Virus record (IMG/VR): IMGVR_UViG_3300027971_000046
Coordinates: 1-64,000 of that record
Reading direction: 5' to 3' (one strand)
DNA length: 64,000 nucleotides
Source of the DNA: a virus
Part shown: piece after piece, positions 4,870 through 49,317 of the stretch
How the letters are laid out: every line of letters starts with the position of its first letter
How positions within the stretch are numbered: position 1 is the stretch's first letter
Notes under the pieces: generated by a model
Databases searched by the model: none
What the model saw: the letters and a program-made list of their open reading frames with translations, nothing else
What the model was told of the DNA's origin: nothing
Made by a program: the position numbers and the translations under genes

Positions 4870-4875
4870 TATTTA
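4870..4875 (-). promoter_or_regulatory. late-type promoter -10 (TAAATA, minus strand)
   Basis: CCTAAATAG on the minus strand lies 32 nt upstream of the ATG of the holin-like gene, inside the 3' end of the preceding small gene. Confidence 0.55.
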
Positions 4876-5070
4876 GGTCTGCGGGGGCTTACGGCGACCA
4901 ATATTTTGCTTCTTCTTTCGCTGTGCGGCTGTGGACACAGGCGGAAGATCAGGGGGAAGTCCTGCAATACTGCCACCGCCTGCGATATTCGTGGGTGGCG
5001 GGGACGACACTGCTGGCGGAATTTCTTCTGTCACAAACGAGGAAAACGGCTTTAGTTTACGGTTGCCCAT
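4873..5070 (-). CDS. small proline-rich protein with capsid-targeting-like N-terminus
   Basis: The 65-aa product begins with a basic, aromatic stretch LKPFSSFVTE followed by a second E. This resembles the T4 internal-protein leader that ends in an (L/I)xE prohead-protease site, with V in place of L/I. The rest is low complexity: proline-rich, then a very basic tail (RKKKQNIGRRK). The ATG overlaps the stop of the upstream fibre gene by 14 nt. The role as a packaged internal protein is inferred. Confidence 0.6.
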   Translation of the reverse strand: MGNRKLKPFSSFVTEEIPPAVSSPPPTNIAGGGSIAGLPPDLPPVSTAAQRKKKQNIGRRKPPQT

Positions 5071-6616
5071 ATGTGGCTCCTCCGAACACCATGAAGTGTA
5101 TGCGCTCCGTGAATCCCAGTTGAAAAATTGAAGCCGACCTGTTCCATGAATTGTCTGTGGAGTTCTGCTTCAGTGAAACCGCTCGGAAGCCACCTGTGTC
5201 CTTTTTGCGTCTGTCCACCATGAGCATGGAATACTCTAGTAGAGCGGTGTAGTCGGTTGCCGTTGTTGCAGCCGCTGTAGGCTCGTACTCTCCGCAAAGA
5301 ATCACACAGTAGTTGCTGTTGGTCATGGTCTTCACGAATGAAATATCAAACTCGGAGTTGCTGCCTGCTGACACGCCCTTGACATTAAAGCCGTTCTCAA
5401 TGTACGCGCTCAACGGACTGCTGTAGCCCTTGTTCGGTGGAATCACAATGGTTCCGTATGCGGTGGCAGTGCGCTTGGACAGCAGATTGGTGAGTGCAGA
5501 TGTGTAGGTTGCACCCGTTACACCAAAGCCACTTGCGCCAGGCACAAGACTCTTGCGTGCGTCTTGGTTGCCCAAAACGGGAGCAGTACTTTCCGTTTTG
5601 ATGTACGGAGTAGCCACGGAGCCTTCTTCTAGTTGTGCGCCCCAAAGGTAGAAGACTTTGCTTTGTCCTTGATAGTTAAGCGCGCCAGTATCATCGGCTA
5701 TATTTACGAATATTCCAGTTTGGTTGTTGTTAATAGCAACAGTACCATTGAAATATCCACTCACCGTAATTCGGAACCATCCGCCACCAACATCAGTAAT
5801 AGACGATGACACTATAGTTGCGCCGTTGGTAACAGTACTCAATGTTTTGGTCTGCAAGTTAAAGGTTGCACCAAAATACACGGAACCAGCATCATAAACA
5901 ATAACTCGTCCACGATATCGTGTTCCCGCTTTAACATAAACACTACCAGTAAATGGTTTGTTTACTAGCGACACAGAATAGTTGCCAGTGTACTGCTGTG
6001 TGCCTTTTTGACTAGAACCATCCGCAGTTCCTTCATTCAATACAGATGCAGTGTTTCCATTGGGTGCTTTGGTTCCATCCGTAGCAAGCGTAGTAGTTGT
6101 ACTGTATCCACTCCATGCTGAATTGCTTAAGTCTTCACTCCACTTGAGTACATTCAGTACCGAAGGAGAACGCAGATCGGTATCTCGCGCAAGGGCAAAT
6201 GACGCAAAATTGATGTACAGATTTCCAGAAGGAAAATCCTGTTGAGTTGCGGTGTTTCCGCCAGCACCAACAGGTCCAGGAAATCCCCAAGTGGCAATCT
6301 GTACGCCTGCGGTTTTTCCCGCTGCGGTCGCACCACCCGCGCCTGCCATGTCTCGCATGGAACTCAACAAACAAGGCGCATTGAATGAACTCACTTCGGG
6401 AGTGTACACCGTGACATATCCACCGCCACCAAATCTTTGGGGATTGGAAAAGGTGATGCCGTGCAGCCCAGTCGAAAGGCGCAGCACGGAAGAAACACCT
6501 GATGAGTCCATTAATTGCGAGACAACCTGTGATGTCCCTGCCTGAATGTTTGCCCATGCATCACAAGTTGGAACAGGCGTGGTGTTTGATGTGAAGTTTG
6601 AAGCAGAACTTGCCAT
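5057..6616 (-). CDS. fibre/head-decoration protein with jelly-roll-like domain
   Basis: The protein is 519 aa, starting at the ATG at 6616, which overlaps the TAA of the upstream gene. Its middle (WSEDLSNSAW ... SVYVKAGTRYRGRV ... GGGWFRITVSG) is the repeated beta-sandwich motif found in many phage spike, fibre and head-fibre proteins. Glycine/serine-rich beta structure surrounds it. The C-terminus (QLGFTERIHFMVFGGATYG) looks like a terminal beta strand. It forms an operon with the next two upstream structural genes. A receptor- or surface-glycan-binding role is inferred. Confidence 0.75.
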   Translation of the reverse strand: MASSASNFTSNTTPVPTCDAWANIQAGTSQVVSQLMDSSGVSSVLRLSTGLHGITFSNPQRFGGGGYVTVYTPEVSSFNAPCLLSSMRDMAGAGGATAAGKTAGVQIATWGFPGPVGAGGNTATQQDFPSGNLYINFASFALARDTDLRSPSVLNVLKWSEDLSNSAWSGYSTTTTLATDGTKAPNGNTASVLNEGTADGSSQKGTQQYTGNYSVSLVNKPFTGSVYVKAGTRYRGRVIVYDAGSVYFGATFNLQTKTLSTVTNGATIVSSSITDVGGGWFRITVSGYFNGTVAINNNQTGIFVNIADDTGALNYQGQSKVFYLWGAQLEEGSVATPYIKTESTAPVLGNQDARKSLVPGASGFGVTGATYTSALTNLLSKRTATAYGTIVIPPNKGYSSPLSAYIENGFNVKGVSAGSNSEFDISFVKTMTNSNYCVILCGEYEPTAAATTATDYTALLEYSMLMVDRRKKDTGGFRAVSLKQNSTDNSWNRSASIFQLGFTERIHFMVFGGATYGQP

Positions 6617-7083
6617 TAGATTACCACCACTCCTAGACTTGATGCAGCATTGCTCCACAGCACAATGTTGTGAACCTGATTGCTTGTTCTGCCACTTCCG
6701 CTGAAAGGAGCGGTGGAAGCACTGTTACAAATGAATCCAACACGCACCCAAAATGAAGTAGTTGTTTTGGGGTACAGGGCAGAGTTCAGCACATGGGCAA
6801 ACTGTGGATACAGCGGACTGGTCCATCCGTATGCCTGCACCATTACTTTGTACTTGGTGTCGCGCATGGGAGTAATAAAGGAGAACTTCAATGCTCCTGC
6901 TCCACCATTTCCACCCATTCCTGTCTGTGTGGCGTAGTCTAGCCGCAGGTTGTACCCGTCTACGAAGTTCTTGGCATCAAAATCTGCTTGGGTGGTTGCG
7001 GTGATAATGTGATTGCCAGTAACGCACCACGCCTTCACGGTGTTGTTGTGTGCAAAGAATGGAAGTACAGGTGAGTTTGCCAT
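6616..7083 (-). CDS. putative virion structural protein, 155 aa
   Basis: This is a beta-rich, glycine/asparagine-rich protein with no catalytic motif. It starts MANSPVLPFFAHNN and overlaps both neighbours by 1 nt (TAATG junctions). It is therefore translated as a unit with the fibre gene downstream. It is probably part of the same fibre or decoration structure. The family is not recognised. Confidence 0.65.
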   Translation of the reverse strand: MANSPVLPFFAHNNTVKAWCVTGNHIITATTQADFDAKNFVDGYNLRLDYATQTGMGGNGGAGALKFSFITPMRDTKYKVMVQAYGWTSPLYPQFAHVLNSALYPKTTTSFWVRVGFICNSASTAPFSGSGRTSNQVHNIVLWSNAASSLGVVVI

Positions 7084-7466
7084 TACAGTTGCCTTAGAAT
7101 CTGTGCCAATTTTCCGTCCATTGGGATGTCCGAGACTACGATGCCGTCAAACATCATCCCTTCCTCTATGTATTCCAAATACAGGAGGACGGTCTTGAGT
7201 GCGGGGTGGGTGTCCCGTTCCAATTTGTGAAACAACATACGCGCAGCAGGAGTACGCCCAAACACATTTCCAAGCACCACCAAGTGGTTCAGCAGCAGAA
7301 TGGTGCGGAGATTGCCGCTTCTCATGTACCGCTTCAGCAACCGCTTCACATACTTGATTTTTGAAATGTCTTCCAAGAATTCAGGCATACCCATGCAATC
7401 AGGATTGGTGTAGTTCCCCATCGCATACAGAGTGAAATTTTCCTTGGTCAAGATTTTGAAATCCAT
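7083..7466 (-). CDS. conserved T4-superfamily protein, 127 aa
   Basis: The sequence (DFKILTKENFTLYAMGNYTNP...KRLLKRYMRSGNLRTILLLNHL) looks like a short helical protein that is common in T4-type cyanophages and has no assigned function. The RTILLLNHL...VFG helix pair and a late position next to structural genes suggest a virion or assembly role. I know of no direct function. Confidence 0.7.
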   Translation of the reverse strand: MDFKILTKENFTLYAMGNYTNPDCMGMPEFLEDISKIKYVKRLLKRYMRSGNLRTILLLNHLVVLGNVFGRTPAARMLFHKLERDTHPALKTVLLYLEYIEEGMMFDGIVVSDIPMDGKLAQILRQL

Positions 7467-7484
7467 GATAAAGAAGTGCTGAGA

Positions 7485-9185
7485 TTACCAGCGCATTCCG
7501 TGCTTGTTGAGCATATCTTTGATTGCCTTCTGCTTTCCAATCACATTGGCTGCGCCTGTGTGTGGTGAAGGCTTCTTGACGGGCTTCTTGGTTGCGGCTT
7601 CCTTGACGGTCTTCTTGATGCGCTTGGTTCCCTTGCCGCTCTGGTCGGCAATGTTGGAGCCAAGAGCAGGTTCCATCACGGGAAGACCCGTGGTGAACTC
7701 GGTGGTGACATCTTCCTTGACCGCCTTCTTCTTGTTGCGGAGCATGGTGAAGTCCTGTGCGTCAAGTCGCTTGTTCTTGTTGACATCAAGTCGCTTCTGA
7801 CCGCCGATGAGGGCTTCGTCAACGACTTGTTCCTTCACAACCTTGTGACCAGGAACAGTGATGCTGCCGTACTCGCCAACATCAACCACATAGCCACCGC
7901 CGTGCTGCTGTGCTTTTCCGCTTCCGCCGTTGTCGTGGCGAACAATCTTGCCCTTTACCATCTTGCCCTTGTGGGGAACCTTCACTCTGTCTCCCGCCTT
8001 GAGCATTTCTTCAATCTGCTCAACCTCTTCTCTCATGCCGTGTTCAGCCTTGCGCCACTTGTTCAGTTCACGCTTGTTTACCTGATACGGACTGCCTTCT
8101 TTGTCCGACTTGCGTCCGTACTTGTGTACAAGTTCAAGGTAGTTGATGCGCGAACCACGGGCGTATCCTCTGTCCCGTTCTTTGGCAGTCTTACCCTTGT
8201 TCAGAGCCTTTGAAGCCTTTTCCTTCTCACGATCAATTATAGCCTGACGAGCAGGAGTGAGTTCTTCATCAAGTTCGGCGGCTTCCTTCACGGGCTTGCG
8301 CTTGCCCTTCACGATCTTGCCGCCGCGACCGTACAGTTTTTCAGACTCGTATTCCTTGGTATCACGCGCAATCAGACGGCGCACAGCAGTATCGTGCTTG
8401 TCTTCCAGTTTGCGTCCACGCTCCGCAGCCTTGCCCGTCTTGTTCATCTTGGCTTCGTAGCCGCGTTGAGCCTTGACATCGTGCCGCTGAATCGCGTGTT
8501 CCATGTCTCGCTGACGAGCAGGAGTCTGTGCCATCTCGTCAATGCTGTCGCCGTCATGCTCCACGCCTTCTTCAGCCACAACAGGCTCGGTCTTGGGAGC
8601 CATTTTGGCGGTGACGCGATACAGCCCGTCTTCTGCCATTTCAATGGAAGCCAGCAGAGTGAACTCTTGCAGTCCTGCGGTGGGATTAGCCTTGCCGTTC
8701 ATCACGACATTGCCTGTGTTGCCGTCAATGCCGTCAACGCGACCGAACAGGGTCACGGTGAGAGTAACAGGACCAGTGCCACCATCCTGCCACAGATACG
8801 GTGTCCACGGGAAATCCAGCATGAGCAGATTCAGGCGCGTCTTGATGCGGATGAACGCTTCGTTGGGAGACTGAAAGGTGCTGCGGCTGATGGCATTCAA
8901 CATGGCGTTGATCTGTGCCATGCGCTCAGGACGAAAGTTGACGGGTCCGTCTTCGGTGTTGATGCCACGATTGGGATAGCCCGTGAGGGTTTCCTTGTAC
9001 TCGCTCTCACTCAGTGTGTTGCGGAAATCCTTGAAACGCTTGGTGTTCTCTTTCATGTGCTTTGCCTTTGAAATTTCAATAGCAGCAAGTTGTTTGGCTG
9101 CCTTCTCTTTTGATGGATGTGTGCCTAGAACTTTTGTTCCGCTCTTGTCTGTGACTACGAACTTGCTGCCGCTCTTCTTGATCAT
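7485..9185 (-). CDS. large basic/charged protein, possible internal head protein
   Basis: The 566-aa protein opens with a 35-residue lysine-rich module (SKFVVTDKSGTKVLG...KAAKQLAAIE), typical of T4-type marine phage proteins. A stretch at residues 50-60 (RFKDFRNTLSE) then resembles a capsid-targeting/cleavage site. A compact beta region follows (TVTLFGRVDGIDGN). The rest is highly charged helix (RQRDMEHAIQRH, ARQAIIDREKEK). Near residue 480 an EF-hand-like loop, DVNKNKRLDAQD, could bind calcium. The function is unknown. Charge and position suit a head-core or packaged protein. Confidence 0.65.
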   Translation of the reverse strand: MIKKSGSKFVVTDKSGTKVLGTHPSKEKAAKQLAAIEISKAKHMKENTKRFKDFRNTLSESEYKETLTGYPNRGINTEDGPVNFRPERMAQINAMLNAISRSTFQSPNEAFIRIKTRLNLLMLDFPWTPYLWQDGGTGPVTLTVTLFGRVDGIDGNTGNVVMNGKANPTAGLQEFTLLASIEMAEDGLYRVTAKMAPKTEPVVAEEGVEHDGDSIDEMAQTPARQRDMEHAIQRHDVKAQRGYEAKMNKTGKAAERGRKLEDKHDTAVRRLIARDTKEYESEKLYGRGGKIVKGKRKPVKEAAELDEELTPARQAIIDREKEKASKALNKGKTAKERDRGYARGSRINYLELVHKYGRKSDKEGSPYQVNKRELNKWRKAEHGMREEVEQIEEMLKAGDRVKVPHKGKMVKGKIVRHDNGGSGKAQQHGGGYVVDVGEYGSITVPGHKVVKEQVVDEALIGGQKRLDVNKNKRLDAQDFTMLRNKKKAVKEDVTTEFTTGLPVMEPALGSNIADQSGKGTKRIKKTVKEAATKKPVKKPSPHTGAANVIGKQKAIKDMLNKHGMRW

Positions 9186-9194
9186 GGATGGATC

Positions 9195-10391
9195 TCAATA
9201 ATCGTCTGCATTTATTGAATGTTTCGATCCTTGCGAATAGTAATCGTCTTTGCTTTTACGATTCGCGTCTTGCTTTTTCTTGTTTTCTGCGGAGCGGCGG
9301 GCTTCTTCTTCTCTCTTCTTTACCGAAGCAGCCGCAGCAGCAGCCGCACGGCGGGAGCGGCGGGCTTCGGAAGCAGCCGCAGCAGCAGCCGCAGCGATTC
9401 CTACTATGCCCTCATCTACTGTAACGGCTTTCTTGCTCTTGCCCTTCTTTGTGCTGAAGGTCTTTGCAGCAGGAATGTCTGTGGTCTTCATTGTCTCGCT
9501 TGCGGTTGTCATGTAATCACTGGACTCTTTCACAGGCTTCTTGGTCGGCTTTGGCTTTTCAAGTTCATCGCGCAACTTGCGAGCCTGCTCCCGTGCCTTC
9601 TTGTTTTCCTGTGGGCTTTTGCGATTCATGGTGGTCATGTATTCGTTGAGTTCGCGCTGAAGATCAAAGAATGTCTTGCCTTCACTCACGCTCTTCCAAC
9701 TACCGCCCTGCTCGTTGTACCACTTCACTGCCCAACCGTTGGCGTAAGCCGATGGGTACACATCAAACTTGGAGCGAGCCTTGGACTTGGCTTTCGCCCA
9801 CAGTCCAGGATTGGTTGGCGTGTTCTTTTCCATGAGTTCCTGTGCGGCTTCAAGCAAACCAAACTCGTCCATGCTTTCGGTGTTGGGAGTCTCAAACGAC
9901 TCTTCCACGCTCTGATTGCCCAGAGTCTTCTTGAAGGCATTGAACAGGGTGGGGGAACCAGTGATCTTCTTGACCATAGAGTCCATCATGTCAATCATCA
10001 GGTCACGGTACACCTTGGACGCGCTCATCTTGACGGCGGTTTCAGGCGACTGTAGAGCGCGGCGGGCAGACAGCACATCCTTCTTCTTGACCAATCCGCT
10101 GCGGAGCAGGGTCTTGGTGCGTTCGGTTTCCACGCCCTCGGTGGTCATGCTGGGTTCTTTGGACAGGCTGGCACGGAGGGCGGTGTACAGGTTGCGGTTG
10201 TTTAGTACACGATCCACCACATCAACCAGAATCTCCTGCATGAGCATACGATACGCAGGGTTCTTCATTGCCTTCTCGGGGTCTTGCAGCAGAGCGGCAG
10301 CGCGGCGCACATTGTTCTTGGAAACCAAGCCAAGGCGCAGCAGCGAATTGAGTTTCGATGAGATGGCACTCTCTTTTCCGATTCCGTCCAT
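9195..10391 (-). CDS. hypothetical protein with poly-alanine/coiled C-terminus, 398 aa
   Basis: The N-terminal half contains two similar helical units (LRLGLVSKNNVRRAAALLQDPEKA and LRSGLVKKKDVLSARRALQSPETA), which indicates an internal duplication. A basic linker and two poly-alanine runs with RRSRR and EEARRS follow, coded by GCN-rich low-complexity DNA. The ATG is preceded by AAGGGAGAACCC and a late-type promoter. No enzyme motif is visible. A structural or packaged role is inferred from the context. Confidence 0.65.
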   Translation of the reverse strand: MDGIGKESAISSKLNSLLRLGLVSKNNVRRAAALLQDPEKAMKNPAYRMLMQEILVDVVDRVLNNRNLYTALRASLSKEPSMTTEGVETERTKTLLRSGLVKKKDVLSARRALQSPETAVKMSASKVYRDLMIDMMDSMVKKITGSPTLFNAFKKTLGNQSVEESFETPNTESMDEFGLLEAAQELMEKNTPTNPGLWAKAKSKARSKFDVYPSAYANGWAVKWYNEQGGSWKSVSEGKTFFDLQRELNEYMTTMNRKSPQENKKAREQARKLRDELEKPKPTKKPVKESSDYMTTASETMKTTDIPAAKTFSTKKGKSKKAVTVDEGIVGIAAAAAAAASEARRSRRAAAAAAASVKKREEEARRSAENKKKQDANRKSKDDYYSQGSKHSINADDY

Positions 10392-11463: not shown

Positions 11464-11504
11464 TTAGATCACCTCCCGTATGCACTTCGGACACCAACTG
11501 CCAG

Positions 11505-12710
11505 TCAAGTTTTCTTCCAAGTTTTTTCAACAGTAAAGTTGCTGCGTGAGAAGTCCAATCGGTCTACTAGTTTCACTGCCTTGTTGCTCATGCGGTCGAT
11601 TGCCACGAAACCTTCGGGTGTCGTGACGCGATATCCCTTGCCGTCCTTGATGAAGGTCGAAACCTCACCCTCAAGGGATGCAAGTTTGTCGCGCACAACC
11701 AACTTCAACTGCGCGACAGAGTTATGTAGGGCGAACACCCGACCGATCTGATTACGGTTTTTCCGTATCCATTCCATCGTGGGTGTTGGCTTTGTGCTTG
11801 GTTTCTTCCTGACGAGTGCCGATTTTGATTGCAGGAATGCAATCAATTGATTCACATCAGCGTGTGAACTGGCAATCCCTTTAGATACAAGAGAGTTGAT
11901 GTATCCTTTGATAGCCTGTTTCACCCCATCGTTCTTTCCGATGGCGTTGAGTATTGCTTTCAGAGATTCGGCAGTGCGCGTGAGCGATTGGATTGAGGCT
12001 TCAATTGTTCTACGATCCGTTGGGCTGAACAGTGCCGAGCCAGAGGCAACACGAAGTGTGGCGTTGTCGAACCACACATCCTTGCTCTTCTTCAAGTACG
12101 AGATATCGGGGTTGAACCGCGCACTCATGTCCTGCATGGTGTTGCCTTCGTATGCAGTATGGAACACGATTCCCATCTTGGCTGCACTCATGCGCTTCGC
12201 CAAATCGCTGTTGGCACTCACTGCGTACCTGATGGTGTTTGCTTGGAAAGTGAGATAGGCTTTTCCGTCAATCTTTTCCCGTTGCAGAGTATCGTGCTTG
12301 AACAAGAAGTCTCCTTGCAGCACACCACGCACACCTAGTTTAGACAGGTGCTTCAGAGCGAGTTTCAGTTTTTCGTTTAGTCCACCCTCGGGGTGGTTTG
12401 CGTCTATGTCCGCATCAGTGAAGTTTAACTTGGGTGTCACATTGAACACGCTCTTCGTACCAACGAAGAACTTGCCAGTTGATGGATCTGTTCCGCAGAA
12501 TATTGCGGGTGCGCCGTCCCACTTCACGGTGACATCGTATGCGCTTGGTTCGTTTGCGCCCAAAGCGTCCATCAAACCAGTGATGGACTTCATGCTGCTG
12601 ACAAAGCCAGAGTATCCGCTGTTCAGCATCTCGTCTTCAAGATGCTCCAAGTGGACATTCTTTCCAGTCTTTTTTACAGCCTCAACCAGATGTTCCGTGA
12701 ATCGTATCAA
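11505..12710 (-). CDS. DUF6267-type protein with ligase/nucleotidyltransferase-like motifs and capsid-targeting leader
   Basis: The 401-aa protein starts at TTG 12710 with GGAGG upstream. The first ten residues, MIRFTEHLVE, match a capsid-targeting leader with an LxE site. The body carries motifs in the order of covalent nucleotidyltransferases: KWDG at 63-66 (motif I, K-x-D-G), VGTKS at 83-87, LQGDFLF at 131-137 (like motif III GE/GD), EGFVAID at 366-372 (like motif IV) and NKAVKLVD at 376-383 (like motif V). I assign it from memory to the DUF6267 family of T4-type phages. The ligase or capping-type activity is inference. Confidence 0.7.
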   Translation of the reverse strand: MIRFTEHLVEAVKKTGKNVHLEHLEDEMLNSGYSGFVSSMKSITGLMDALGANEPSAYDVTVKWDGAPAIFCGTDPSTGKFFVGTKSVFNVTPKLNFTDADIDANHPEGGLNEKLKLALKHLSKLGVRGVLQGDFLFKHDTLQREKIDGKAYLTFQANTIRYAVSANSDLAKRMSAAKMGIVFHTAYEGNTMQDMSARFNPDISYLKKSKDVWFDNATLRVASGSALFSPTDRRTIEASIQSLTRTAESLKAILNAIGKNDGVKQAIKGYINSLVSKGIASSHADVNQLIAFLQSKSALVRKKPSTKPTPTMEWIRKNRNQIGRVFALHNSVAQLKLVVRDKLASLEGEVSTFIKDGKGYRVTTPEGFVAIDRMSNKAVKLVDRLDFSRSNFTVEKTWKKT

Positions 12711-14437: not shown

Positions 14438-14980
14438 TTATCTTTTCTTGCTACGCGGACGCAATCCAAATGTCAAACGCTTACGCATTGAAAGTTTACG
14501 CTTTCGCTTGGCTTGTGATCTCTTGCCACGAGCCTTTCGTGCTGCTCGTTTTGCAGTGAGTTTCATTTTACGCAATTGACTCGTAGCCCGCTTCACACAG
14601 GTACGCGGTCCTCTTTTCTTGAAGCCAGGAGCGCACTTGAAGATGATGCGCTTGCGTCCCTTGCGAACCACGATCTTGCGCTTGGCAGCGGCTTCGTTTA
14701 GTTCTTCGCCTTGAATGTCAACCGATTCTTCAATCTCTTCTGCGTCATCGTCTTCAATGCTGATCTCGGCTTCTTCCACCGCGTCAAGAATGTAGATGAC
14801 ACCATCTTTTTCTTCCCACTCCACCTCGTTCTCGTCAAGGTAGTCTACCACATCTTCATAGGAAAGCGAGGGCATATCCAAAACAATCTTCTCTTCCGTG
14901 AGTTCAGCGTCAAACTCCTCAAAGACAATTCTTTGAAGTGAGCAGAATGCGTGGTCGCGTAGTTCTTTGAATGGCTTCAT
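14438..14980 (-). CDS. bipartite acidic/very basic protein, 180 aa
   Basis: Residues 1-95 are acidic (YEDVVDYLDENEVEWEEKDG, then EEAEISIEDDDAEEIEES). Residues 100-180 are extremely basic (KLTAKRAARKARGKRSQAKR), with a CAPGFKKRGPRTCVKR segment that may bind metal or nucleic acid. The start, MKPFKELRDHAF, is only loosely like a capsid-targeting leader. Such a charge split suits a packaged DNA-binding protein whose acidic half could be removed by the prohead protease. This is inference. Confidence 0.65.
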   Translation of the reverse strand: MKPFKELRDHAFCSLQRIVFEEFDAELTEEKIVLDMPSLSYEDVVDYLDENEVEWEEKDGVIYILDAVEEAEISIEDDDAEEIEESVDIQGEELNEAAAKRKIVVRKGRKRIIFKCAPGFKKRGPRTCVKRATSQLRKMKLTAKRAARKARGKRSQAKRKRKLSMRKRLTFGLRPRSKKR

Positions 14981-19286: not shown

Positions 19287-20099
19287 TCACCGCCACTTGT
19301 TGTTGTCTTTGGAACGATTGGTGTGGCGAGACACGAGCCGTATGTTCTTTTTCCCGTTGTTCAGCGCGTTTCCGTCCTTGTGGTCAATCTCGCGTCCATC
19401 GGTGCTTTTTCCTTCGCGTCCCATTTTGCGAAGAATACGCTTGCGCGAAGTTTTCTTCTTCATGGCTTTACGCTGCTTGGGCGTGGGGTTGTCGCCGCCG
19501 TACATCTTGGCGTATTCAGCCTTGTAGTCACGGGCTTCGGGAACCATGCCGCGCAGCGGATTGAGCGGATCTTTCCACTTCATACCCTTGGGTGGATGGG
19601 CAGACGCTTCCACTTTGCTCCACGGTAGCACAGCCAGTTTAGCCGTGGTCACCGTGCGCTTGTTCTGAAGCGGTCCTTGACCGCTCACCATGCGATCTGT
19701 AATCTCATAACCGTACTGCTTGCCAAACCGCCGCATCATGGCACTGTAAACGGCATCGCGCTTGCCTTCGGATGTCTTGGACACCATGTCAAACTGTTTG
19801 GGCAATTCCTCAAATGTTTCGGTATGCCACTTCAAGAACATCTTTACGGCTTCAATCACCGTTGCCAGTATGCGGTACGGCTTGCCTGCGTGGGTGAGTT
19901 CATGTGAGCCGTCAAGCGTGAAGTTGATTTCCCACCCGTTGTTGATCTTTGTAATATCAATGTTCAGGTACTGACCGTTTTCGGTCTGTGCTTGATAGGT
20001 GACTTCAATGGTTGTCATGCCGTGACCGATCCGCTTCATTTCACGCACAGGAAGCGGACGATCAAACAGTTCAGTGAGATAGGAGCGAAATGTGTTCAC
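19287..20099 (-). CDS. HNH endonuclease-like protein with capsid-targeting leader
   Basis: The start is GTG at 20099, overlapping the upstream TGA. The leader NTFRSYLTELFD fits the T4 internal-protein pattern, with a predicted cut after LTE, and also echoes the LITELFDE leader of T4 Alt. The C-terminus (residues ~236-264) is an HNH-type zinc/metal nuclease motif, REIDHKDGNALNNGKKNIRLV...HTNRSK. The middle is beta-rich and unknown. The gene could be taken for a homing endonuclease, but its leader and its place inside the coupled late operon suggest a packaged nuclease delivered with the DNA. Confidence 0.8.
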   Translation of the reverse strand: MNTFRSYLTELFDRPLPVREMKRIGHGMTTIEVTYQAQTENGQYLNIDITKINNGWEINFTLDGSHELTHAGKPYRILATVIEAVKMFLKWHTETFEELPKQFDMVSKTSEGKRDAVYSAMMRRFGKQYGYEITDRMVSGQGPLQNKRTVTTAKLAVLPWSKVEASAHPPKGMKWKDPLNPLRGMVPEARDYKAEYAKMYGGDNPTPKQRKAMKKKTSRKRILRKMGREGKSTDGREIDHKDGNALNNGKKNIRLVSRHTNRSKDNNKWR

Positions 20100-20842
20100 G
20101 CTTTACCTCCCTGATACAACTCACCAAACTTGTGCTGTTTGTCCAACCAAACAATGGTGGGTGCTGCCATGCCCCCACGCGCAATGTCCAACTCATGCAC
20201 CGTGCCGCCCACTGCGGCGGCTGCTTTACGCGCAAGTGCTTTGTAGATGCGACCACGCGCAGGATTGGCACTGGTCTTGGTTCCAATGATGATTCCGCGA
20301 ACGGGATGGTTGTTCTTGACGAATTCACGCGAAGCGTCCACCACCGCGCCAAGCACAGAAGCAGCACCGCCTGTACTCAACCAATTCAGGTCTTCATCTG
20401 TGCCGCCGCTATCAAATTTCCAATAGAACTTGCTGATGTCCTTGGGTTTTGAGCCAACTGGGTACGGACGGGGCGGCATACGCTCAAGCGATGTTGCGTG
20501 GCGAGAAAACGACAACTCGTAGATGCCGTCAGGCTCCAAGCCGTAGAACAGCAAAAATTCAGGGTATTCGTTTCGGATCTGCACAAGTGGAGTAAACTCC
20601 ACCGAGTACACATACACTCTTGCTTTTTTTGTGTAGAACTTGTGCAGGCTGTCAAAGTGATTCTCTGGCGTGACTTCCAATTCCTTTTCCACCCACTGCG
20701 TGAGTTTGCTTCCACGATCAGGAACAGGTATCAAGCGACCGTCTTTTTCCTGCACATGAAAAATGAATTGATTGTAGCCCATGCGTTGCAGGGAAAACTT
20801 TGTGTCAAACAGTTCGGTGAGATATGAGCGGAAGTCTATCAT
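20096..20842 (-). CDS. hypothetical protein with capsid-targeting leader, 248 aa
   Basis: The leader MIDFRSYLTELFD is almost the same as that of the next gene downstream, although the bodies differ. That indicates a swapped or conserved N-terminal tag. The body has a strand-rich middle (ARVYVYSVEFTPLVQI) and a C-terminal segment PVRGIIIGTKTSANPARGR ... KALARKAAAAVGG that could be an acetyltransferase-like P-loop region. This is uncertain. It overlaps both neighbours by 4 nt. Confidence 0.7.
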   Translation of the reverse strand: MIDFRSYLTELFDTKFSLQRMGYNQFIFHVQEKDGRLIPVPDRGSKLTQWVEKELEVTPENHFDSLHKFYTKKARVYVYSVEFTPLVQIRNEYPEFLLFYGLEPDGIYELSFSRHATSLERMPPRPYPVGSKPKDISKFYWKFDSGGTDEDLNWLSTGGAASVLGAVVDASREFVKNNHPVRGIIIGTKTSANPARGRIYKALARKAAAAVGGTVHELDIARGGMAAPTIVWLDKQHKFGELYQGGKA

Positions 20843-21849
20843 ACGGCTTTACGCTTCACCTTTCCGTGCAGTTGACGGGAGAAAATTTCGGAGCGGTAGT
20901 CCACAGCCTTGTCGGAGTATGTGGTGTAGCCGCCCTTTACCCACGAATCAGCGTAGGTCATCTGATTTCCGCCTGTCATCTGCGACAACTTCAAATTCGT
21001 GACTTCAACGGTGTCACCCAAACGAATGGGCGGCAACCCTTCCTTGCGATCCGCTGTGCCAATGTAGCCCATGAGCATCCAGCCTTCATCGGTCTGAATG
21101 CGAACACGCCATCGCCACACGCTCATCTTGGCATCATACGCTTTCTGACCAGGAGTATCCACATACGGACTCTTCCCATCTCGTTCTCCAATGCGGAAGC
21201 GCGTGTTCCTGTACTTCTTGGTCTTTACGGGAATATCAAACACAGGATGCAACTGCACAATCTTGCCGCTGATGTTGAACGGCTTACGAAAGTACTCGGG
21301 TTTGGGCTGCGGTGTGTCGCCTTGTTCCACGCCTTCTTTCACGGTTTTCTTCTGACCAATCCCGTACTTCTTCAAAATTGCATCTCGCTTGGCTTGCAGT
21401 TCTCGCTGCCGTGGTGAAGCGGGCATGGTTTTCAGGATTTTAATTGTCAGGCGATTTGCTTCTTTGCGGTCTTCAGGCGACATCACAGCCCACGGATCTT
21501 TGAAATCCTTGAAGTCATGTGAGGTTTCATTTTTGACCCACTGCATTACCATAGCCTTGGCTTTCGCTAGTGTATCCACGACCTCATCAGGCTGTCCACC
21601 TTCACGCACTCTGCGAATGAGATTTGCTTCGGGACCACCATCCTCTTCATACGATGCACCACTGCCATCGTATATGCAGTATAACTTCTTGCCTATCGGG
21701 GCATACCCGCGATACTCGTTGCATTTGGAAATCATGTACTTGCCGTGGCTTGTGATCCATGTGTTTGGACGCTTGCCTTTCACGATGGTAACCGCAGCAG
21801 CCTCTGTGATTTCTACGCGCTCCTGCATGAAATGCGAAAACCCTTTCAT
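20839..21849 (-). CDS. hypothetical protein with capsid-targeting leader, 336 aa
   Basis: The first 16 residues (MKGFSHFMQERVEITE) end in an ITE site suitable for the prohead protease. The body contains a basic helical segment (SPRQRELQAKRDAILKKYGI) and a C-terminal beta domain (WRWRVRIQTDEGWMLMGYIG, then LGDTVEVTNLKLSQM). The latter looks like an OB/SH3-like barrel by strand pattern. No family is recognised. It overlaps both neighbours by 4 nt. Confidence 0.7.
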   Translation of the reverse strand: MKGFSHFMQERVEITEAAAVTIVKGKRPNTWITSHGKYMISKCNEYRGYAPIGKKLYCIYDGSGASYEEDGGPEANLIRRVREGGQPDEVVDTLAKAKAMVMQWVKNETSHDFKDFKDPWAVMSPEDRKEANRLTIKILKTMPASPRQRELQAKRDAILKKYGIGQKKTVKEGVEQGDTPQPKPEYFRKPFNISGKIVQLHPVFDIPVKTKKYRNTRFRIGERDGKSPYVDTPGQKAYDAKMSVWRWRVRIQTDEGWMLMGYIGTADRKEGLPPIRLGDTVEVTNLKLSQMTGGNQMTYADSWVKGGYTTYSDKAVDYRSEIFSRQLHGKVKRKAV

Positions 21850-22415
21850 ATCGCGCCCTCCACATCCATGTCAACCACTGTGTAGCCAGGGAACATACGC
21901 GCCAGATTGTTTGCCACGCGATTCTTGCCGCGTTGAAGCGCACGATCACGCAGCAGATTTTGTCCTGTTGCCGCAGAGATAAGCGAAACGGTCTTGCGGA
22001 AACGGTCAACGCGACCCTGATAGTCAGGCATACCGCTTCCGTTGGTTGATCGTTCAACCGCACTACGATATTCAGGAATATCGTGGTGTATCACATCAGC
22101 GGTTTGGTGTGGCGGAATTTCCCACACTATGATCTTGCCGCCGTCCCACCACCACAACAGCGGCAAGTACTGGCGCAGAGTCTTGACATCATTGGTTGGC
22201 GGCAGTCCCCACTTCTCAAGCCAACGAGCGTTGGGATTGTCGTGACCTGTTGAATCGTAAGCCGCATAGGTCTTGCCGTCATAGGTGGTTTCAGCACGCA
22301 AACGCTGAAGCGTCTTTGCAGCGGTTTTCTTGTAGCCGCGTGGCTTCCGTGCGCCCTTTACGGCTTTGGTCTTGGAGATCACGGCTTCGCGTAGATGTTG
22401 AGTAAAAGACTTCAT
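21846..22415 (-). CDS. hypothetical protein with capsid-targeting leader, 189 aa
   Basis: The leader MKSFTQHLREAV fits the aromatic-basic pattern with an LxE site. A very basic segment follows (KAVKGARKPRGYKKTAAK). The core contains YLPLLWWWDGGKIIVWEIPPHQTADV and ends acidic. No recognised fold. It overlaps both neighbours by 4 nt in the same operon. Confidence 0.7.
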   Translation of the reverse strand: MKSFTQHLREAVISKTKAVKGARKPRGYKKTAAKTLQRLRAETTYDGKTYAAYDSTGHDNPNARWLEKWGLPPTNDVKTLRQYLPLLWWWDGGKIIVWEIPPHQTADVIHHDIPEYRSAVERSTNGSGMPDYQGRVDRFRKTVSLISAATGQNLLRDRALQRGKNRVANNLARMFPGYTVVDMDVEGAI

Positions 22416-22924
22416 GCGATTTTCCTTGCGCGTTTTACTATTTCAGAGTGATCGAATGCAAGTTGAGGCATTTTGTTCACGGGAAACCACTCTGCTGCGC
22501 TTGCATCATCTGCACCGCGAACCCGTGGATTGAAGCCCTTCGGAAGCGTAACGGTGAACGCATGGGAGCGCGACCACGATTCTGCACTGTCGCGTGGATC
22601 GCGTCCACCACCCTCGAAAACTCCGATATGCTTTATCATTCGCTGCTGTGCAGGGGTGAGTCGCAGTCCTGTTTCTTCTTCCAATTCACGAACCGCTGCT
22701 TGCAGAGGCGATTCCGCCCCACCCTTCCACTCTTCTCCGCGCTGTGCCGTGGTGTTGATGAAGCCACCAGGGATTGCCCACTTGCCGCCTTCCACGCTGC
22801 CAGTCTTGCGCTTGATGAGCAGCAGTTCTTTTCCGTTCGCGCCTTCACGAAACACCACAAGATCCACCGTGGGATTTGCACCACGAAAAAAGTATTCTGT
22901 GATGTGGACGCGAAACGACTTCAC
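22412..22924 (-). CDS. NUDIX hydrolase with capsid-targeting leader
   Basis: I chose GTG at 22924 (VKSFRVHITEYF) because it overlaps the upstream TGA by 4 nt like the rest of the operon. A GTG 15 nt earlier is possible. The leader ends in ITE. The NUDIX box is clear: GAESPLQAAVRELEEETGL, with the E-x7-REUxEExGU core. It is preceded by a GKWAIPGGFIN strand as in nucleotide- or sugar-diphosphate hydrolases. Packaging of such an enzyme is predicted from the leader. Its substrate cannot be told from sequence. Confidence 0.9.
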   Translation of the reverse strand: MKSFRVHITEYFFRGANPTVDLVVFREGANGKELLLIKRKTGSVEGGKWAIPGGFINTTAQRGEEWKGGAESPLQAAVRELEEETGLRLTPAQQRMIKHIGVFEGGGRDPRDSAESWSRSHAFTVTLPKGFNPRVRGADDASAAEWFPVNKMPQLAFDHSEIVKRARKIA

Positions 22925-23646
22925 GATGCGGTTCTCCACTCGTTTGGATTGTACCGCTTGAAATCCGATAGTCCGCGATTCAGTCCAACGCGCTCCACCA
23001 CGACTGTGTTGAAGTTGCCACCGCTCTCGCTGATCTCGCGCAGTGCTGCACGAATGGAGTCGCCGTTGATGCCTTCCAGTGACGGTGAATTTCGTGCGCT
23101 TCCCGAGTACACCTTCAGCCAGCCCTTCATGTACGCAAGCCGCTGCACTTCATACGCCAGATCAATGTCTGTCTTCAGAATGCTGTCGCGCACACTTTCG
23201 GCTGTGTGTGCCTGTGGAGTGCCTTCGCTGTCGTACCAATTCATGTGGCGCGACACCAAATGCTCTGCTTCCTTCAGCAGTCCCCCATTCAGTTCTGCGG
23301 TGGAGATGCCGAATGCCCGTGGAGTCTTTACAATCTGCGTGACATGGAAGCCACTGGTGAACAGGAACCACTGCTTGGTGGGATGCCACCAGCCTGGCTT
23401 CATGTTGTAGCCGCCACCGCTCCACGGAAACGGCTGACGCGCCGACTGTGTGCGGTGCTGTGCTTGCGACTTTGCAAGAGCCTTTGCGGCTACCCGTGCC
23501 ATGACTCCACCGTAAAGCCGTGCTTGCCGCCGCTCGTATGCAATATCTGCACGACTACGCGCTCCACTGGTAGCGGGTGGCGTGTACGCATTGGGGTTGT
23601 CCTCAATGGCGAGGCGTTCGGTAATGTACTGGCGGAATGTCTTCAT
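22921..23646 (-). CDS. hypothetical protein with capsid-targeting leader, 241 aa
   Basis: This is the first gene of the coupled run. ATG 23646 (MKTFRQYITERL) follows a late-type -10 element by only 5 nt with no Shine-Dalgarno sequence, so a leaderless message is expected. The leader is very close to T4 IPIII (MKTYQEFIAE). The body has a Gly/Trp-rich patch (GGGYNMKPGWWHPTKQWFLF) and helical C-terminus. Family unknown. Confidence 0.75.
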   Translation of the reverse strand: MKTFRQYITERLAIEDNPNAYTPPATSGARSRADIAYERRQARLYGGVMARVAAKALAKSQAQHRTQSARQPFPWSGGGYNMKPGWWHPTKQWFLFTSGFHVTQIVKTPRAFGISTAELNGGLLKEAEHLVSRHMNWYDSEGTPQAHTAESVRDSILKTDIDLAYEVQRLAYMKGWLKVYSGSARNSPSLEGINGDSIRAALREISESGGNFNTVVVERVGLNRGLSDFKRYNPNEWRTAS

Positions 23647-25283: not shown

Positions 25284-25606
25284 TGGGAATCCTCCTGTTA
25301 TGCCTACTGTATGTTGCTATTCTACCGCACCCAAAATTTCAAGAATAGGGGTGGATCAATACTTGAATGCGAAACAATATTTGAAAGGTATGGGTTTCGA
25401 GATCGAGAGTGTCGAGCGGGGTTCTTGAGGCATTGCGGGAATGGGTGAAGTGTGTCGCGGCTCGTGCGCTCGTGCAGGCGCGTGCGGGCAGCCGCCCCCC
25501 GTACAGGTTATCGGACTCGCTGTCCCCGTAAGTCCTGTATTCCCAAGGGTTTACGCAATCTATATTTGAATCCCCTGTTTCGCTTGCAAATATGCCCATT
25601 TTCCAG
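25284..25606. other. divergent intergenic control region
   Basis: These ~320 bp hold no gene. They contain an inverted copy of the TTTCAAATATT motif found three times at 31.6 kb (25376-25386), a GC-rich palindromic stretch around 25455-25495, the TTATCGGAC element and a sigma70-type promoter for the plus-strand module. Confidence 0.5.
25508..25528 (+). promoter_or_regulatory. shared upstream element (TTATCGGAC ... GCTGTCCCCG)
   Basis: This 21-bp element is identical at 20 of 21 positions to 28060-28080, upstream of the CobS-like gene. The TTATCGGACT core also occurs at 37995, upstream of another leaderless gene. It is a candidate operator for co-regulation. Confidence 0.55.
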
Positions 25607-25612
25607 TACAAT
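25584..25612 (+). promoter_or_regulatory. sigma70-type promoter, leaderless
   Basis: TTGCAA, a 17-bp spacer and TACAAT; the -10 ends 6 nt before the ATG at 25619 and no Shine-Dalgarno sequence is present. Confidence 0.7.
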
Positions 25613-25618
25613 TTGGGT

Positions 25619-28115: not shown

Positions 28116-28122
28116 AAACCAC

Positions 28123-34572: not shown

Positions 34573-35091
34573 ATGCGCTTTAGATCAAATCAGTATCGTC
34601 ATATCACCGAAGCCACCAGTAGTGGAGTGGAGGGCGACTACGAGGGCGAGATGTCCCGTAGCGAACTCAAGTCCACCATTGCCAACTGCAAAGAACTGCT
34701 TGACATGATTGGCGAGGACGACGAGATTGAAGCGTGGGTGCAGTCCAAGATCACCAAGGCAGCAGACTACATTTCAAGCGTTCGCAACTACATGGTGGGC
34801 GACACCGTGAACGAAGCCGTGGGTGCATGGCAGCGCAAGGAAGGCAAGAACCCCGAGGGCGGATTGAACAAGAAGGGCGTGGCTTCGTACCGCCGCGAGA
34901 ATCCAGGCTCCAAACTGCAAACAGCAGTCACTACGAAGCCATCCAAACTGAAGCCAGGCTCCAAGAGCGCAAATCGCCGCAAGTCGTTCTGCTCACGCAT
35001 GAAGGGCATGAAGGCTAAACTCACCTCCGCAGAGACTGCGCGTGACCCTGATTCGCGCATCAACAAATCTTTGCGAAAATGGAACTGCTAG
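34573..35091 (+). CDS. DUF6321-type protein with capsid-targeting leader
   Basis: The ATG at 34573 follows GGAGGATTGCTC. The first 13 residues (MRFRSNQYRHITE) end in an ITE prohead-protease-like site. The C-terminal half (GAWQRKEGKNPEGGLNKKG ... ANRRKSFCSRMKGMKAKL ... DPDSRINKSLRKWNC) is a strongly conserved basic phage module, DUF6321 from memory. A late promoter plus leader suggests a packaged DNA-associated protein. Its activity is unknown. Confidence 0.8.
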   Translation: MRFRSNQYRHITEATSSGVEGDYEGEMSRSELKSTIANCKELLDMIGEDDEIEAWVQSKITKAADYISSVRNYMVGDTVNEAVGAWQRKEGKNPEGGLNKKGVASYRRENPGSKLQTAVTTKPSKLKPGSKSANRRKSFCSRMKGMKAKLTSAETARDPDSRINKSLRKWNC

Positions 35092-41795: not shown

Positions 41796-42380
41796 TCACT
41801 TCTTTTTTCCCATCACTACCAATCTGATGTTTTCACCAAACTTGTCATTGTATACGATTGAATCGTGCTTGTCTGGATTGTATTTGTCTATAGTCGCAAT
41901 TTTGTTCTTTCTTTGTGATGTATCAACTGCGGATACCTGTCTCATCTTTGCCAATGTTGCCCACAATGAACGGGAACCTGCCGATTGGGTGGGTCCACTT
42001 ATGACACCACCAAACCTGTCTGCAATCATTCCATAGACCTTTGCAGCCAATCCACTCACCTTTGCGTTTCCGCCACGATGGGACGGATGAATGTTTGGTG
42101 TGTCCACAGCAACAATACTTCTTCCATTTCGCCTACCACCGTCAACCAATGGAAATACCCCAATCTGTTTCCCCTCATGGTGTACGGTTACTGTGTCGGC
42201 TCCCATATCGTCTTGAATATGATGAACTTCATATGGACCGATATTTCCCAAATGTGCTATATGCTTGGTGTTCGGATCTGCATTCGGTTTTGTTGAATGC
42301 ACATATCTGCGAGAAGCCGCCCACGGGCGTTCTACTGGCATCTCCGACAAATATTCAACGAACTGCGAGAAGGACTTCAT
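41796..42380 (-). CDS. GNAT-like acetyltransferase-fold protein with capsid-targeting leader
   Basis: The 194-aa product starts at ATG 42380 (MKSFSQFVEYLSE), a capsid-targeting leader with an LSE cleavage site. The core SIVAVDTPNIHPSHRGG ... GLAAKVYGMIADRFGG ... SLWATLA fits GNAT motif A (R-G-x-G/N-x-A) and the following helix. It is the only minus-strand gene in this region, and a direct terminator repeat flanks it on both sides. It is probably an inserted cassette. A packaged protein-modifying enzyme is predicted. Confidence 0.7.
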   Translation of the reverse strand: MKSFSQFVEYLSEMPVERPWAASRRYVHSTKPNADPNTKHIAHLGNIGPYEVHHIQDDMGADTVTVHHEGKQIGVFPLVDGGRRNGRSIVAVDTPNIHPSHRGGNAKVSGLAAKVYGMIADRFGGVISGPTQSAGSRSLWATLAKMRQVSAVDTSQRKNKIATIDKYNPDKHDSIVYNDKFGENIRLVVMGKKK

Positions 42381-44844: not shown

Positions 44845-45067
44845 GCAGTACTACGGTTGTGGATGGATCGTGGGACTGGAACACTACCTGTGGACGCTTG
44901 CACTGCGTCAGGACACCGAAGAAGGACAGATTCTGCTGTACTGCGCGGAAATGAGCGGCGGGTGGTGGATGTGGGACGACAAGCAGGAAGCAGCGGTGTT
45001 TGTGCCTCTTCCAATTTGGCGTTCCGCGTACAACGAAAACGAGATGGCGGAATCAGTCAGTCCATAA
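44828..45067 (+). CDS. small phage protein, 79 aa
   Basis: I chose the ATG at 44828, which overlaps the end of the previous gene by 17 nt. The core LSEQYYGCGWIVGLEHYLWT is typical of small phage proteins of unknown role. Aromatic-rich centre (GGWWMWDDKQEA). The stop codon is part of the TAAATA in front of the tmRNA. Confidence 0.65.
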   Translation: MRDLSEQYYGCGWIVGLEHYLWTLALRQDTEEGQILLYCAEMSGGWWMWDDKQEAAVFVPLPIWRSAYNENEMAESVSP

Positions 45068-45070
45068 ATA
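45065..45070 (+). promoter_or_regulatory. late-type -10 element (TAAATA) in front of the tmRNA
   Basis: CATAAATA overlaps the upstream stop codon and would start transcription near 45077, just before the acceptor piece of the tmRNA. Confidence 0.5.
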
Positions 45071-45412
45071 CCTACGGCATTGTTGATCGTGGACGAAAAC
45101 GCATACAGCACGGGGGTTCAACTCCCCCCGACTCCATTACTCAGATGCGCGAACGCGGAGTGACTGCATCACCCGCCTCTTCCCGCAGTCAAGCCCTCCG
45201 TTTGCAGCGGGGGCAAAACATAAGGGGTCGATTCGGAATCGACTGGTGCGGAGTACTGAAGCAGGAGATGTCCGAGGCGTGTATCAGATCCTCGTTAAAA
45301 AAACTGGTGCAACAATAATTGCTAACCAATTAGCAATGGCGGCTTGAAGCCGTGGGGACTAGCCCTCCCGCATCTGAACGGGCTGAAAAAGGAGCCGCAA
45401 GGCTCCTTTTTC
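45071..45412 (+). ncRNA. ssrA: circularly permuted (two-piece type) tmRNA with its terminator
   Basis: tmRNA rescues stalled ribosomes and tags the nascent peptide. The 3' acceptor part comes first: T arm GGGGG-TTCAACT-CCCCC and CGACTCC-A at 45129-45136. The 5' part follows: GGGGTCG at 45224-45230 then GGAATCGACTGG. The two pair perfectly as the acceptor stem, with the alanine-identity G-T pair at position 3. Downstream, CCGAGG ... CCTCG (pseudoknot 1), a TTAAAAAAAC stretch, the tag frame, a hairpin CGGCT-TGA-AGCCG with the stop in its loop and a second pseudoknot-like fold follow. A terminator closes it at 45386-45412. The order acceptor-spacer-coding is that of alphaproteobacterial and cyanobacterial permuted genes. 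No CCA is encoded. Confidence 0.88.
45309..45347 (+). other. tmRNA tag reading frame
   Basis: From the resume codon GCA at 45309 the frame reads A-T-I-I-A-N-Q-L-A-M-A-A and stops at TGA 45345-45347. The terminal -AA and hydrophobic end fit ClpXP-type tags, although the usual -ALAA/-VAA is replaced by -AMAA. Other frames stop at once. Confidence 0.75.
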
Positions 45413-45442
45413 CATTTATACATACTAGACGGAGGAAATGGC

Positions 45443-48000: not shown

Positions 48001-48050
48001 ATACACTCTAGCAATTGGTGGGTGAAACATCCCCCCAATTGTTTTTCACT

Positions 48051-48491
48051 ATGAACGCAAAGCGAATTCAAAGACTCCTTGGGATCGCGTATCCCCTGTG
48101 CTTGGACAATCCCCGTCCCAAGAAGCACATTTCAATTATTCTCCGCAAGGGGTCGGTTGAAGCCATTGGGTCTAATGTAATGAAGACCCATCCAATGGCA
48201 GTGCAGCACGGCTACCTGTTCGGGGAAATGCACTCTGAATTGGATGCATTTTTGAAAGTCAATACTGCTGCCAAGCGCGGTCTAGTCCTGTTTAATGTGC
48301 GGTTCAACCGCTTTGGGCAGATGCGTATGGCGCGTCCGTGTGTGCGCTGTATGCCGTGGTGCGTGGGCTGTTTTGACGAGATTTGGTACACCACGGACGC
48401 AGGGGTAATGCTGCACGGTGAGGGGTTGACTCCTATAAATATAGGGATACCCAAGGAGAAACTGCATGAAAAAGTTCACCCAATATCTTGA
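48051..48491 (+). CDS. cytidine-deaminase-fold protein
   Basis: The 146-aa product carries the zinc-deaminase signature: MHSELDAF (H-x-E) and RPCVRCMPWC (P-C-x-x-C). In between is a strand (RGLVLFNVRFNRFG), and after it FDEIWYTTDAGV, as in dCMP/cytidine deaminase-like folds. It could convert dCMP to dUMP for thymidine synthesis or deaminate nucleic acid. Its tail overlaps the next gene by 26 nt and contains that gene's late promoter. Confidence 0.78.
   Translation: MNAKRIQRLLGIAYPLCLDNPRPKKHISIILRKGSVEAIGSNVMKTHPMAVQHGYLFGEMHSELDAFLKVNTAAKRGLVLFNVRFNRFGQMRMARPCVRCMPWCVGCFDEIWYTTDAGVMLHGEGLTPINIGIPKEKLHEKVHPIS
48434..48441 (+). promoter_or_regulatory. late promoter (full TATAAATA)
   Basis: TATAAATA is the exact T4 late consensus, 24 nt before the ATG at 48466 with CAAGGAGAAACTGC between. 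Confidence 0.8.
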
Positions 48492-49317
48492 TTCGGCTGC
48501 ACTAAACGAAGCACTGTCCCGTAAGGACACGGACGAGGTTCCACTCGTTGAGTCCAAACTGTCTCGTGTATTTCAGTACATTGAAGACGACAAGCGCGAC
48601 TTTGGAATTATGAGTGCATTCCGTGGAGCCAACTCCGACAAGGAGAACAAGGCAAAGCACGAAGAACTCAAGCAGATGGTGCGTGGCATGGGCTACGGCT
48701 TCATTGAACTGCGTGGTGGTTACAAGGGCGATGAAGGCTTCAATGAAGAATTGAGTCTGCTTATTCCGAACATCACCAAGAAGGAAATTGTTGCGCTTGG
48801 TCGCAAGTTTGCACAGCACTCCGTGATGTACAAGAATGACGAGGACTTTTACTATATCGGCACAAACGAAGAAGCAGGTGTAGGCAAGGTTCTTATGAAG
48901 TTCAAGAAGGGCGAAGGACAGCACAATCTGGAACTCGCCAAGCACAAGGTTGTGGATTTCTTCTCGCAACTTCGCAAGGGCGCACACAACGACAAGAAGT
49001 TCGTGTTTAATGCCAAGGATGAGACTCCTGCCCAAACCGCTCAAGCAGCACAGACAGACAAGGCTGCTGCTGCGCGTCACCGTCCAGGTGATGTGTGGAA
49101 GACCTCTAGCGGCTTGTGGGGCGGCATGGACGCATCAGGCAACTACGAGTACTTTGACGACAAGGAAAGCGCACAGAAGTACGCCAAGAAGCACCGCGCA
49201 GGATACAAGATCCAAGAGCGCGAGGAGTGGGGATTCAACAAGGCTGCATATCTTCGTCGTGGCGAACAACCCAAGTGGATCACGATTTATGAAGATTCTA
49301 CCGAGGAAAATGCCTAA
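48466..49317 (+). CDS. DUF3293-like protein with capsid-targeting leader and W/G module
   Basis: The first 15 residues (MKKFTQYLDSAALNE) end in an LNE prohead-protease site. Residues ~45-145 (GIMSAFRGANSDKENKAKHE ... GYGFIELRGGYK ... LGRKFAQHSVMY) follow the DUF3293 layout. Residues 206-242 (PGDVWKTSSGLWGG ... YEYFDDKESAQKY) are the same W/G module seen at residues 40-76 of the ParB-like protein. A perfect late promoter supports a virion role. Confidence 0.75.
   Translation: MKKFTQYLDSAALNEALSRKDTDEVPLVESKLSRVFQYIEDDKRDFGIMSAFRGANSDKENKAKHEELKQMVRGMGYGFIELRGGYKGDEGFNEELSLLIPNITKKEIVALGRKFAQHSVMYKNDEDFYYIGTNEEAGVGKVLMKFKKGEGQHNLELAKHKVVDFFSQLRKGAHNDKKFVFNAKDETPAQTAQAAQTDKAAAARHRPGDVWKTSSGLWGGMDASGNYEYFDDKESAQKYAKKHRAGYKIQEREEWGFNKAAYLRRGEQPKWITIYEDSTEENA

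Follow-up and report, generated by a model that had tools for sequence, protein, structure and literature searches.

A set of unrelated proteins of a T4-like phage begins with a shared short peptide, or leader, and these leaders are very probably capsid-targeting sequences of the T4 type, carried by a large and exchangeable packaged proteome that includes a protein resembling S-adenosylmethionine (SAM) lyases. The DNA analysed, referred to here as the window, comprises bases 1-64000 of IMG/VR virus record IMGVR_UViG_3300027971_000046 (73,079 bases), in which 95 genes were called with a simple script of our own. About ten proteins carry leaders with good support, and twelve at most: the products of an operon of six genes, a DUF6267 protein, the SAM-lyase-like protein, a DUF6321 protein, and small or unassigned proteins (Table 1). 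This reading is strongly supported because the leaders follow the positional rules of T4 and conserve L-x-E, a sister phage encodes the corresponding protease and capsid protein, the leaders are retained while the cargo behind them changes, and proteins with such leaders have been detected in virions of another T4-like phage. A first-pass annotation of the window had proposed the same for about 12 proteins, and all twelve N-termini that it quoted were found in place; the open reading frame (ORF) at 42380 is the least certain of them.

In phage T4, the leader of internal protein (IP) III is necessary and sufficient for packaging, residues 4 and 7 acting in targeting and residues 8 and 10 in processing, and the protease gp21 cleaves after (L/I)-x-E (PMC9026906). 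From this published mutagenesis we built a strict rule, ^M..[FYW]..[FYWHLM][LIVM].E, that is, an aromatic residue at position 4, a bulky residue at 7, L/I/V/M at 8 and Glu at 10. The rule matches 7 of the 95 window genes (p about 1e-15), against 0.025 by chance when internal positions of these proteins serve as background and 0.014 when their N-termini are shuffled; it was written after the list of leaders had been seen, and fits the independent T4 definition. Positions 4, 7 and 8 alone select the same seven genes and g76. Close variants occur in g76, g06 and the 42380 ORF, and weaker leaders with deviating spacing occur in g45 and at a site within g10; those of g06, g45 and g10 fall outside the strict rule and are retained in relatives. 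Most leaders end in (L/I)-x-E, with V-T-E in g06 and M-Q-E followed by I-T-E in g24. For the main statistics we kept to the strict rule, because looser regular expressions also match ORFs of cyanophage S-CREM2 that were not detected in its virions (gp30, gp71, gp91, gp102 and gp199).

The nine 30-base segments that encode the seven strict leaders and those of the 42380 ORF and g76 share a mean DNA identity of 51% (maximum 70%) and use differing codons for the same residues, so that what the leaders share is a protein motif rather than a repeat in the DNA. A late-promoter-like TAAATA motif lies close upstream of 4 of the 7 leader transcription units, including 5 nt upstream of g27, as compared to 9 of 88 other genes (p = 0.006), which is weak support since the grouping was made after the hits had been seen. 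AlphaFold models of g23 and g76 have low confidence at the leader, which is probably flexible. A further candidate, g14 (MKTFQHELVTLEE), was rejected because the cleavage Glu is not kept in its homologue in relative L007 (MKTFRHAFVDINGD).

The six leader genes between 19.3 and 23.6 kb form one run with 4-base stop-start overlaps. Comparison with relatives of the phage demonstrates that leader and cargo are separable, as domains are exchanged while a leader stays in front. The C-terminal domain of g24 (about residues 170-336) is a shuffled cargo module: in relatives its last approximately 165 residues directly follow MKNFSSYFNE (L004) or MRGFSGYITE (L196), stand behind other N-terminal domains with leaders MKRFVQHMDE, MKGFSNYLTE or MKDFYSYLNE, or are fused to g25 (L189 and L190) or to the HNH protein (L005 and others). 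Each of these proteins begins with a leader, except in L007, where none was seen, and the replacement cargoes found at the operon site in relatives likewise begin with leaders. The leader of g27 is retained in relatives, reading MKKYFQFIRNLHE in L007 ahead of the same RLxIxDN; that of g25 is retained in every relative with a complete N-terminus; and in g23 the core F-x-S-Y-L-T-E is invariant in 8 homologues, down to 29% identity.

The NUDIX, DUF6267 and DUF6321 labels of the first-pass annotation agree with Pfam, in which the NUDIX domain of g26 scores 1.2e-17 (64.6 bits against a cut-off of 21.1; solved NUDIX relatives, 4e-14). The g26 gene is 99% identical in sister record G001 and absent from the other relatives checked. 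The HNH label of g22 held for the sister version (HNH_3, 4e-8, above the cut-off), with the window copy falling below the cut-off at 1.9e-4. Pfam gave no match for g23, g24, g25, g27 or several of the replacement cargoes, and the fair AlphaFold model of g23 (pLDDT 74) had no PDB match. The GNAT-like label given to the 42380 ORF was dropped, as neither Pfam nor a PDB sequence search returned a GNAT match; this ORF lacks a clear ribosome-binding site, and no homologue of it was found in the relatives.

Table 1. Leader-bearing genes of the window and one context gene (g17); position 1 is the first base of the window.
Gene	Position	Strand	Product	Leader (position)	Remarks
g27	22921..23646	-	241 aa, no assigned family	MKTFRQYITE (23617-23646)	strict rule; first operon gene
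g26	22412..22924	-	NUDIX hydrolase	VKSFRVHITE (22895-22924)	strict rule; GTG start
g25	21846..22415	-	189 aa, no assigned family	MKSFTQHLRE (22386-22415)	strict rule
g24	20839..21849	-	336 aa	MKGFSHFMQERVEITE (21802-21849)	strict rule
g23	20096..20842	-	248 aa, no assigned family	MIDFRSYLTELFD (20804-20842)	strict rule
g22	19287..20099	-	C-terminal HNH motif	VNTFRSYLTELFD (20061-20099)	strict rule; GTG start
g13	11505..12710	-	DUF6267 (Pfam 2.9e-103)	LIRFTEHLVE (12681-12710)	strict rule; TTG start
g06	4873..5070	-	65 aa	LKPFSSFVTE (5026-5055)	five residues past ATG (MGNRK-LKPFSSFVTE)
g45	34573..35091	+	DUF6321 (1.6e-19)	MRFRSNQYRHITE (34573-34611)	variant, different spacing
g10	7485..9185	-	566 aa	MKENTKRFKDFRNTLSE (9006-9056)	internal, leader-like; includes RFKDFRNTLSE
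42380 ORF	41796..42380	-	194 aa, open frame	MKSFSQFVEYLSE (42342-42380)	least certain member
g76	48466..49317	+	SAM-lyase-like	MKKFTQYLDSAALNE (48466-48510)	close variant
g17	14438..14980	-	similar to head scaffolding family (phrog_3503, 2.6e-7)		context, not a leader protein

Outside the operon the leaders are also conserved. That of g13 is retained in relatives, and in g06, where the leader had been placed at the start of the protein and in fact begins past the ATG, it is retained in G001 and G002 as IKKFSAFIKE and IKKFSKFISE. The leader of g45 is kept as MRFNSQAYRSLTE in the sister phage and MKFNSTKYKNIGE in a further relative, and the region behind it changes. The leader of g10 had been described as internal, which is correct for the gene as called in the window, but in the G001 homologue it is N-terminal (MSEHKRFKAFRSELTE); the window gene may carry an extra domain ahead of the leader or may start at an internal ATG at 9056. 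The leaders of g22, g26 and g13 were likewise correctly placed, on start codons other than ATG (Table 1). The g13 gene adjoins g12, a cytidylyltransferase gene (10411-12710 for both). The window and cyanophage S-SZBM1 each have one leader per cytidylyltransferase/DUF6267 pair, on a different member of the pair, and PHROG 455 matches both proteins; the two may be loaded as a complex.

The product of g76 is predicted to be a member of the SAM lyase family by Pfam (S-AdoMet_lyase PF23780, 1.4e-9, 38.4 bits against a cut-off of 28) and by fold search. The best Foldseek matches to its predicted fold (mean pLDDT 57) are the T3 SAMase structures 7ock and 8bb1 and Svi3-3 6znb, with probabilities of 0.97-1.00 and E-values of 0.002-0.009. 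Of the conserved active-site residues Gly, Tyr, Glu and Gln, the last two may lie in E95-x-S97 and Q117-x-S119, which resemble E69-x-S71 and Q104-x-S106 of the Svi3-3 active site; the Gly-x-Tyr pair could not be clearly placed. The putative cut site in the leader, LNE, lies five residues later than the strict position. Among 17 homologues, residues 1-8 and L13-x-E15 are largely conserved and residues 10-12 and 14 are variable, so that L-x-E is kept with a variable x, the pattern expected of a protease motif; in one distant homologue the leader is shorter. The proteins g76 and g19 (15891-17978) have a short motif in common, W-K/Q-T-[AS]-S-G-x-W-G ... EYFD, and tblastn searches with g76 also find it in relatives of g19.

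The phage is T4-like, as the window encodes a gp32 single-strand binding protein (1.4e-46) and a T4 tail-cap protein, and T4-type baseplate genes were read downstream of it. The sister record G001 (149,886 bases), in which the g27 homologue is 97% identical and further cargo genes are near-identical, encodes an S77 prohead protease (5e-42) and gp23 (1e-133). Portal, core proteins and scaffold were read at 26-33 kb of G001, and MLVE|A in its gp23 is a plausible processing site. In the window, g17 contains ELNE|AAAKRK, read by eye as a possible internal cut site. A megablast search of phage records with the cargo region gave no match.

As a control, the strict rule was applied to T4, where it matches 3 of 254 genes: ipII, ipIII and gp61.1. 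The leader of IPI is longer (MKTFKEFTSTTTPVSTITE). The hypothetical protein gp61.1 (NC_000866 18966-19130, -) begins MKTFKEFIKE and, judged by this N-terminus, is possibly an unrecognised internal protein. S-CREM2 was reached via a SAM-lyase homologue and has a published virion proteome (PMC10665884, Table 3). Three of its 219 ORFs match the strict rule, namely gp6 (SAM hydrolase, MKDFDSFLEE), gp14 (kinase, MKRFDAFLTE) and gp154 (cytidylyltransferase, MKNFSSFLTE), and all three are among the 52 virion-detected proteins (p = 0.013, or 0.003 with known structural proteins excluded). The near-matches gp12 (Cas9-like, LRFASFMAE), gp13 (MKDLHSFLTE) and gp136 (MQTFSMFFSE) were detected as well; the virion paper makes no mention of a leader (PMC10665884). 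Cytidylyltransferases of cyanophages S-RIM2 and S-H68 also carry the leader, and those of jumbo phages SP27 and Paride begin at or near the enzyme domain, with no leader.

Viral contigs were searched for the leader with a back-translated DNA pattern, the control being the same letters with the codons in another order. At least 120 stretches of viral contigs matched the pattern and none matched the permuted control. Of 80 loci retrieved, 75 have the match at the start of an ORF of at least 50 aa. The mature parts of the 85 leader proteins sort into 36 unrelated families, and the Pfam matches among them include SAM lyase, ART-PolyVal, HNH, acid-phosphatase-like, cytidylyltransferase and DUF6267. 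Head genes were sought in 21 contigs, 18 from the survey and three from relatives of the window phage. The S77 protease is present in nine of them and gp23 likewise in nine, and the three longest (at least 128 kb) have both, like G001. Contigs of 96 kb and 110 kb have neither, and absence from the shorter fragments is not informative. Another cargo array was seen in a 14-kb viral contig, L111, where five leader proteins stand in a row (6502-9422, -); two of them read like ADP-ribosyltransferases (ARTs; IIAYHGSK and FYRGLSD).

Several observations weigh against the capsid-targeting reading. The 73,079-base record, probably a fragment, yielded none of the head genes looked for, gp23 being the one searched and the prohead protease not searched for. 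The virion data come from other T4-like phages and not from this phage or its sisters. The S-CREM2 numbers are small, a wider rule lowers the contrast (5 of 8 detected, p = 0.02), and the authors of that proteome warn of co-purification (PMC10665884). The evidence from the S-SZBM1 proteome (PMC9146016) is mixed: the sole enzyme detected, a cytidylyltransferase, begins MRFRQFIIE|A, and a 105-aa protein that matches the strict rule is not among the detected virion proteins. Finally, the cytidylyltransferase of the window, g12, has no leader, nor do its homologues in the T4-like phages HTVC008M and Cr30.

Of the other explanations, the one that survives best is that the leader proteins do enter the prohead core and there serve head assembly or DNA condensation without being injected to act on the host. 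In T4 the core likewise houses gp22, gp67 and gp68, several of which are processed (PMC9026906), and one recurrent leader family matches a PHROG named virion structural protein; yet several cargoes belong to enzyme families (NUDIX, HNH, SAM lyase) and vary between close relatives, which would be unusual for assembly parts, and we consider this explanation unlikely. It is more improbable still that the motif serves to localise the proteins to, or let them interact with, something in the cell other than the head, such as a replication site, membrane or chaperone: a leader that is predicted to be disordered, or is modelled at low confidence, could act as a short binding peptide of any kind, but this one fits the T4 positions for targeting and processing, keeps L-x-E, and marks proteins detected in S-CREM2 virions. 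Chance resemblance or recent gene duplication can practically be dismissed, for although g22 and g23 share FRSYLTELFD and could have exchanged this segment, the background counts already contradict such an explanation, and the low DNA identity of the leader segments and the empty permuted search also speak against it.

If the leaders are capsid-targeting sequences, the proteins would be expressed late, and F4-x-x-(Y/H/F)7-(L/I)8 would bind the prohead core and bring the cargo into the forming head. A gp21-type S77 protease would then cleave after (L/I)-x-E to release mature proteins, which would stay associated with the DNA in the head and probably pass into the cell alongside it. Packaging and cleavage in this phage are what we infer, the former with good support. 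Injection, and a role in host takeover or counter-defence, is a plausible extrapolation from the T4 IPs and Alt, as are effects on the host such as the removal of SAM against restriction. The T4 proteins Ip1-3 block type IV restriction enzymes, and at least ten internal proteins have reportedly been found in related T-even phages by the same signal (PMC12373910).

The closest known system is that of T4 IPI, IPII and IPIII (MKTYQEFIAE), which share with the window proteins the aromatic residue at 4, the bulky residue at 7, L/I at 8 and Glu at 10, on a short and, in the window proteins, putatively removable N-terminal peptide ahead of unrelated cargoes and with an S77 protease (here in the sister phage). 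At position 4 the window leaders have Phe where T4 has Tyr, and their position 7 is often His or Tyr; the window differs further in its enzyme cargoes, six-gene operon and shuffled domains. The leader of the T4 ADP-ribosyltransferase Alt (MELITELFDE) reads LITELFD where g22 and g23 read (Y)LTELFD; in the latter an F-R-S-Y targeting part precedes, and no ART domain was found in either. Enzymes are also present in CsCl-purified virions of cyanophages S-CREM2, S-SZBM1 and S-SCSM1, with the leader on the S-CREM2 SAM hydrolase, kinase and cytidylyltransferase, whereas the cargo set here is partly different and those publications draw no link to a leader. For myoviruses, ART, Macro and Nudix proteins have been proposed as head-loaded (PMC9503650), an argument made from MuF, portal or protease fusions and gene neighbourhood and not from a removable N-terminal leader. 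Compared with T3 SAMase, which is reported to be made before any other viral protein once the cell is infected (PMC8406200), g76 shares with it and Svi3-3 the Pfam family and predicted fold, and differs in its packaging-type leader, the late-promoter-like site upstream, and an extra C-terminal region.

Two other features of the window were noted. A permuted tmRNA gene (45046-45438, +; Rfam RF04321, 63.4 bits; ARAGORN tag ANQLAMAA) lies among six tRNA genes. An AAA ATPase (AAA_5, 1.6e-20) adjoins an 802-aa protein with no Pfam match (25592-29469, +), and the two are possibly a CobS/CobT-like pair of the kind known from cyanophages.

The mechanism itself is already known from T4. As far as the literature consulted shows, in which the one paper bringing the topics together was a T4 review, what appear to be new are the scale, the enzyme content, the exchangeability of the cargo operon, and the connection to enzymes already reported from cyanophage virions. 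Little is known of what T4-like phages other than the T-even coliphages inject along with their DNA. A ten-residue rule that picks out known T4 internal proteins and is consistent with the published virion proteome of a cyanophage would allow packaged effectors to be predicted from sequence alone, including those of uncultured phages, and offers a ready explanation for puzzling cyanophage virion enzymes: the SAM hydrolase, the kinase, the cytidylyltransferase and perhaps the Cas9-like protein. On a broader proposition our judgement is evenly balanced, namely that the leaders are a general cargo-loading code of environmental T4-like phages, which would place dozens of enzyme families in exchangeable operons and inject ready-made enzymes, among them a SAM lyase that acts before phage gene expression. 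A SAM lyase delivered with the DNA would be a possible way to pre-empt SAM-dependent restriction.

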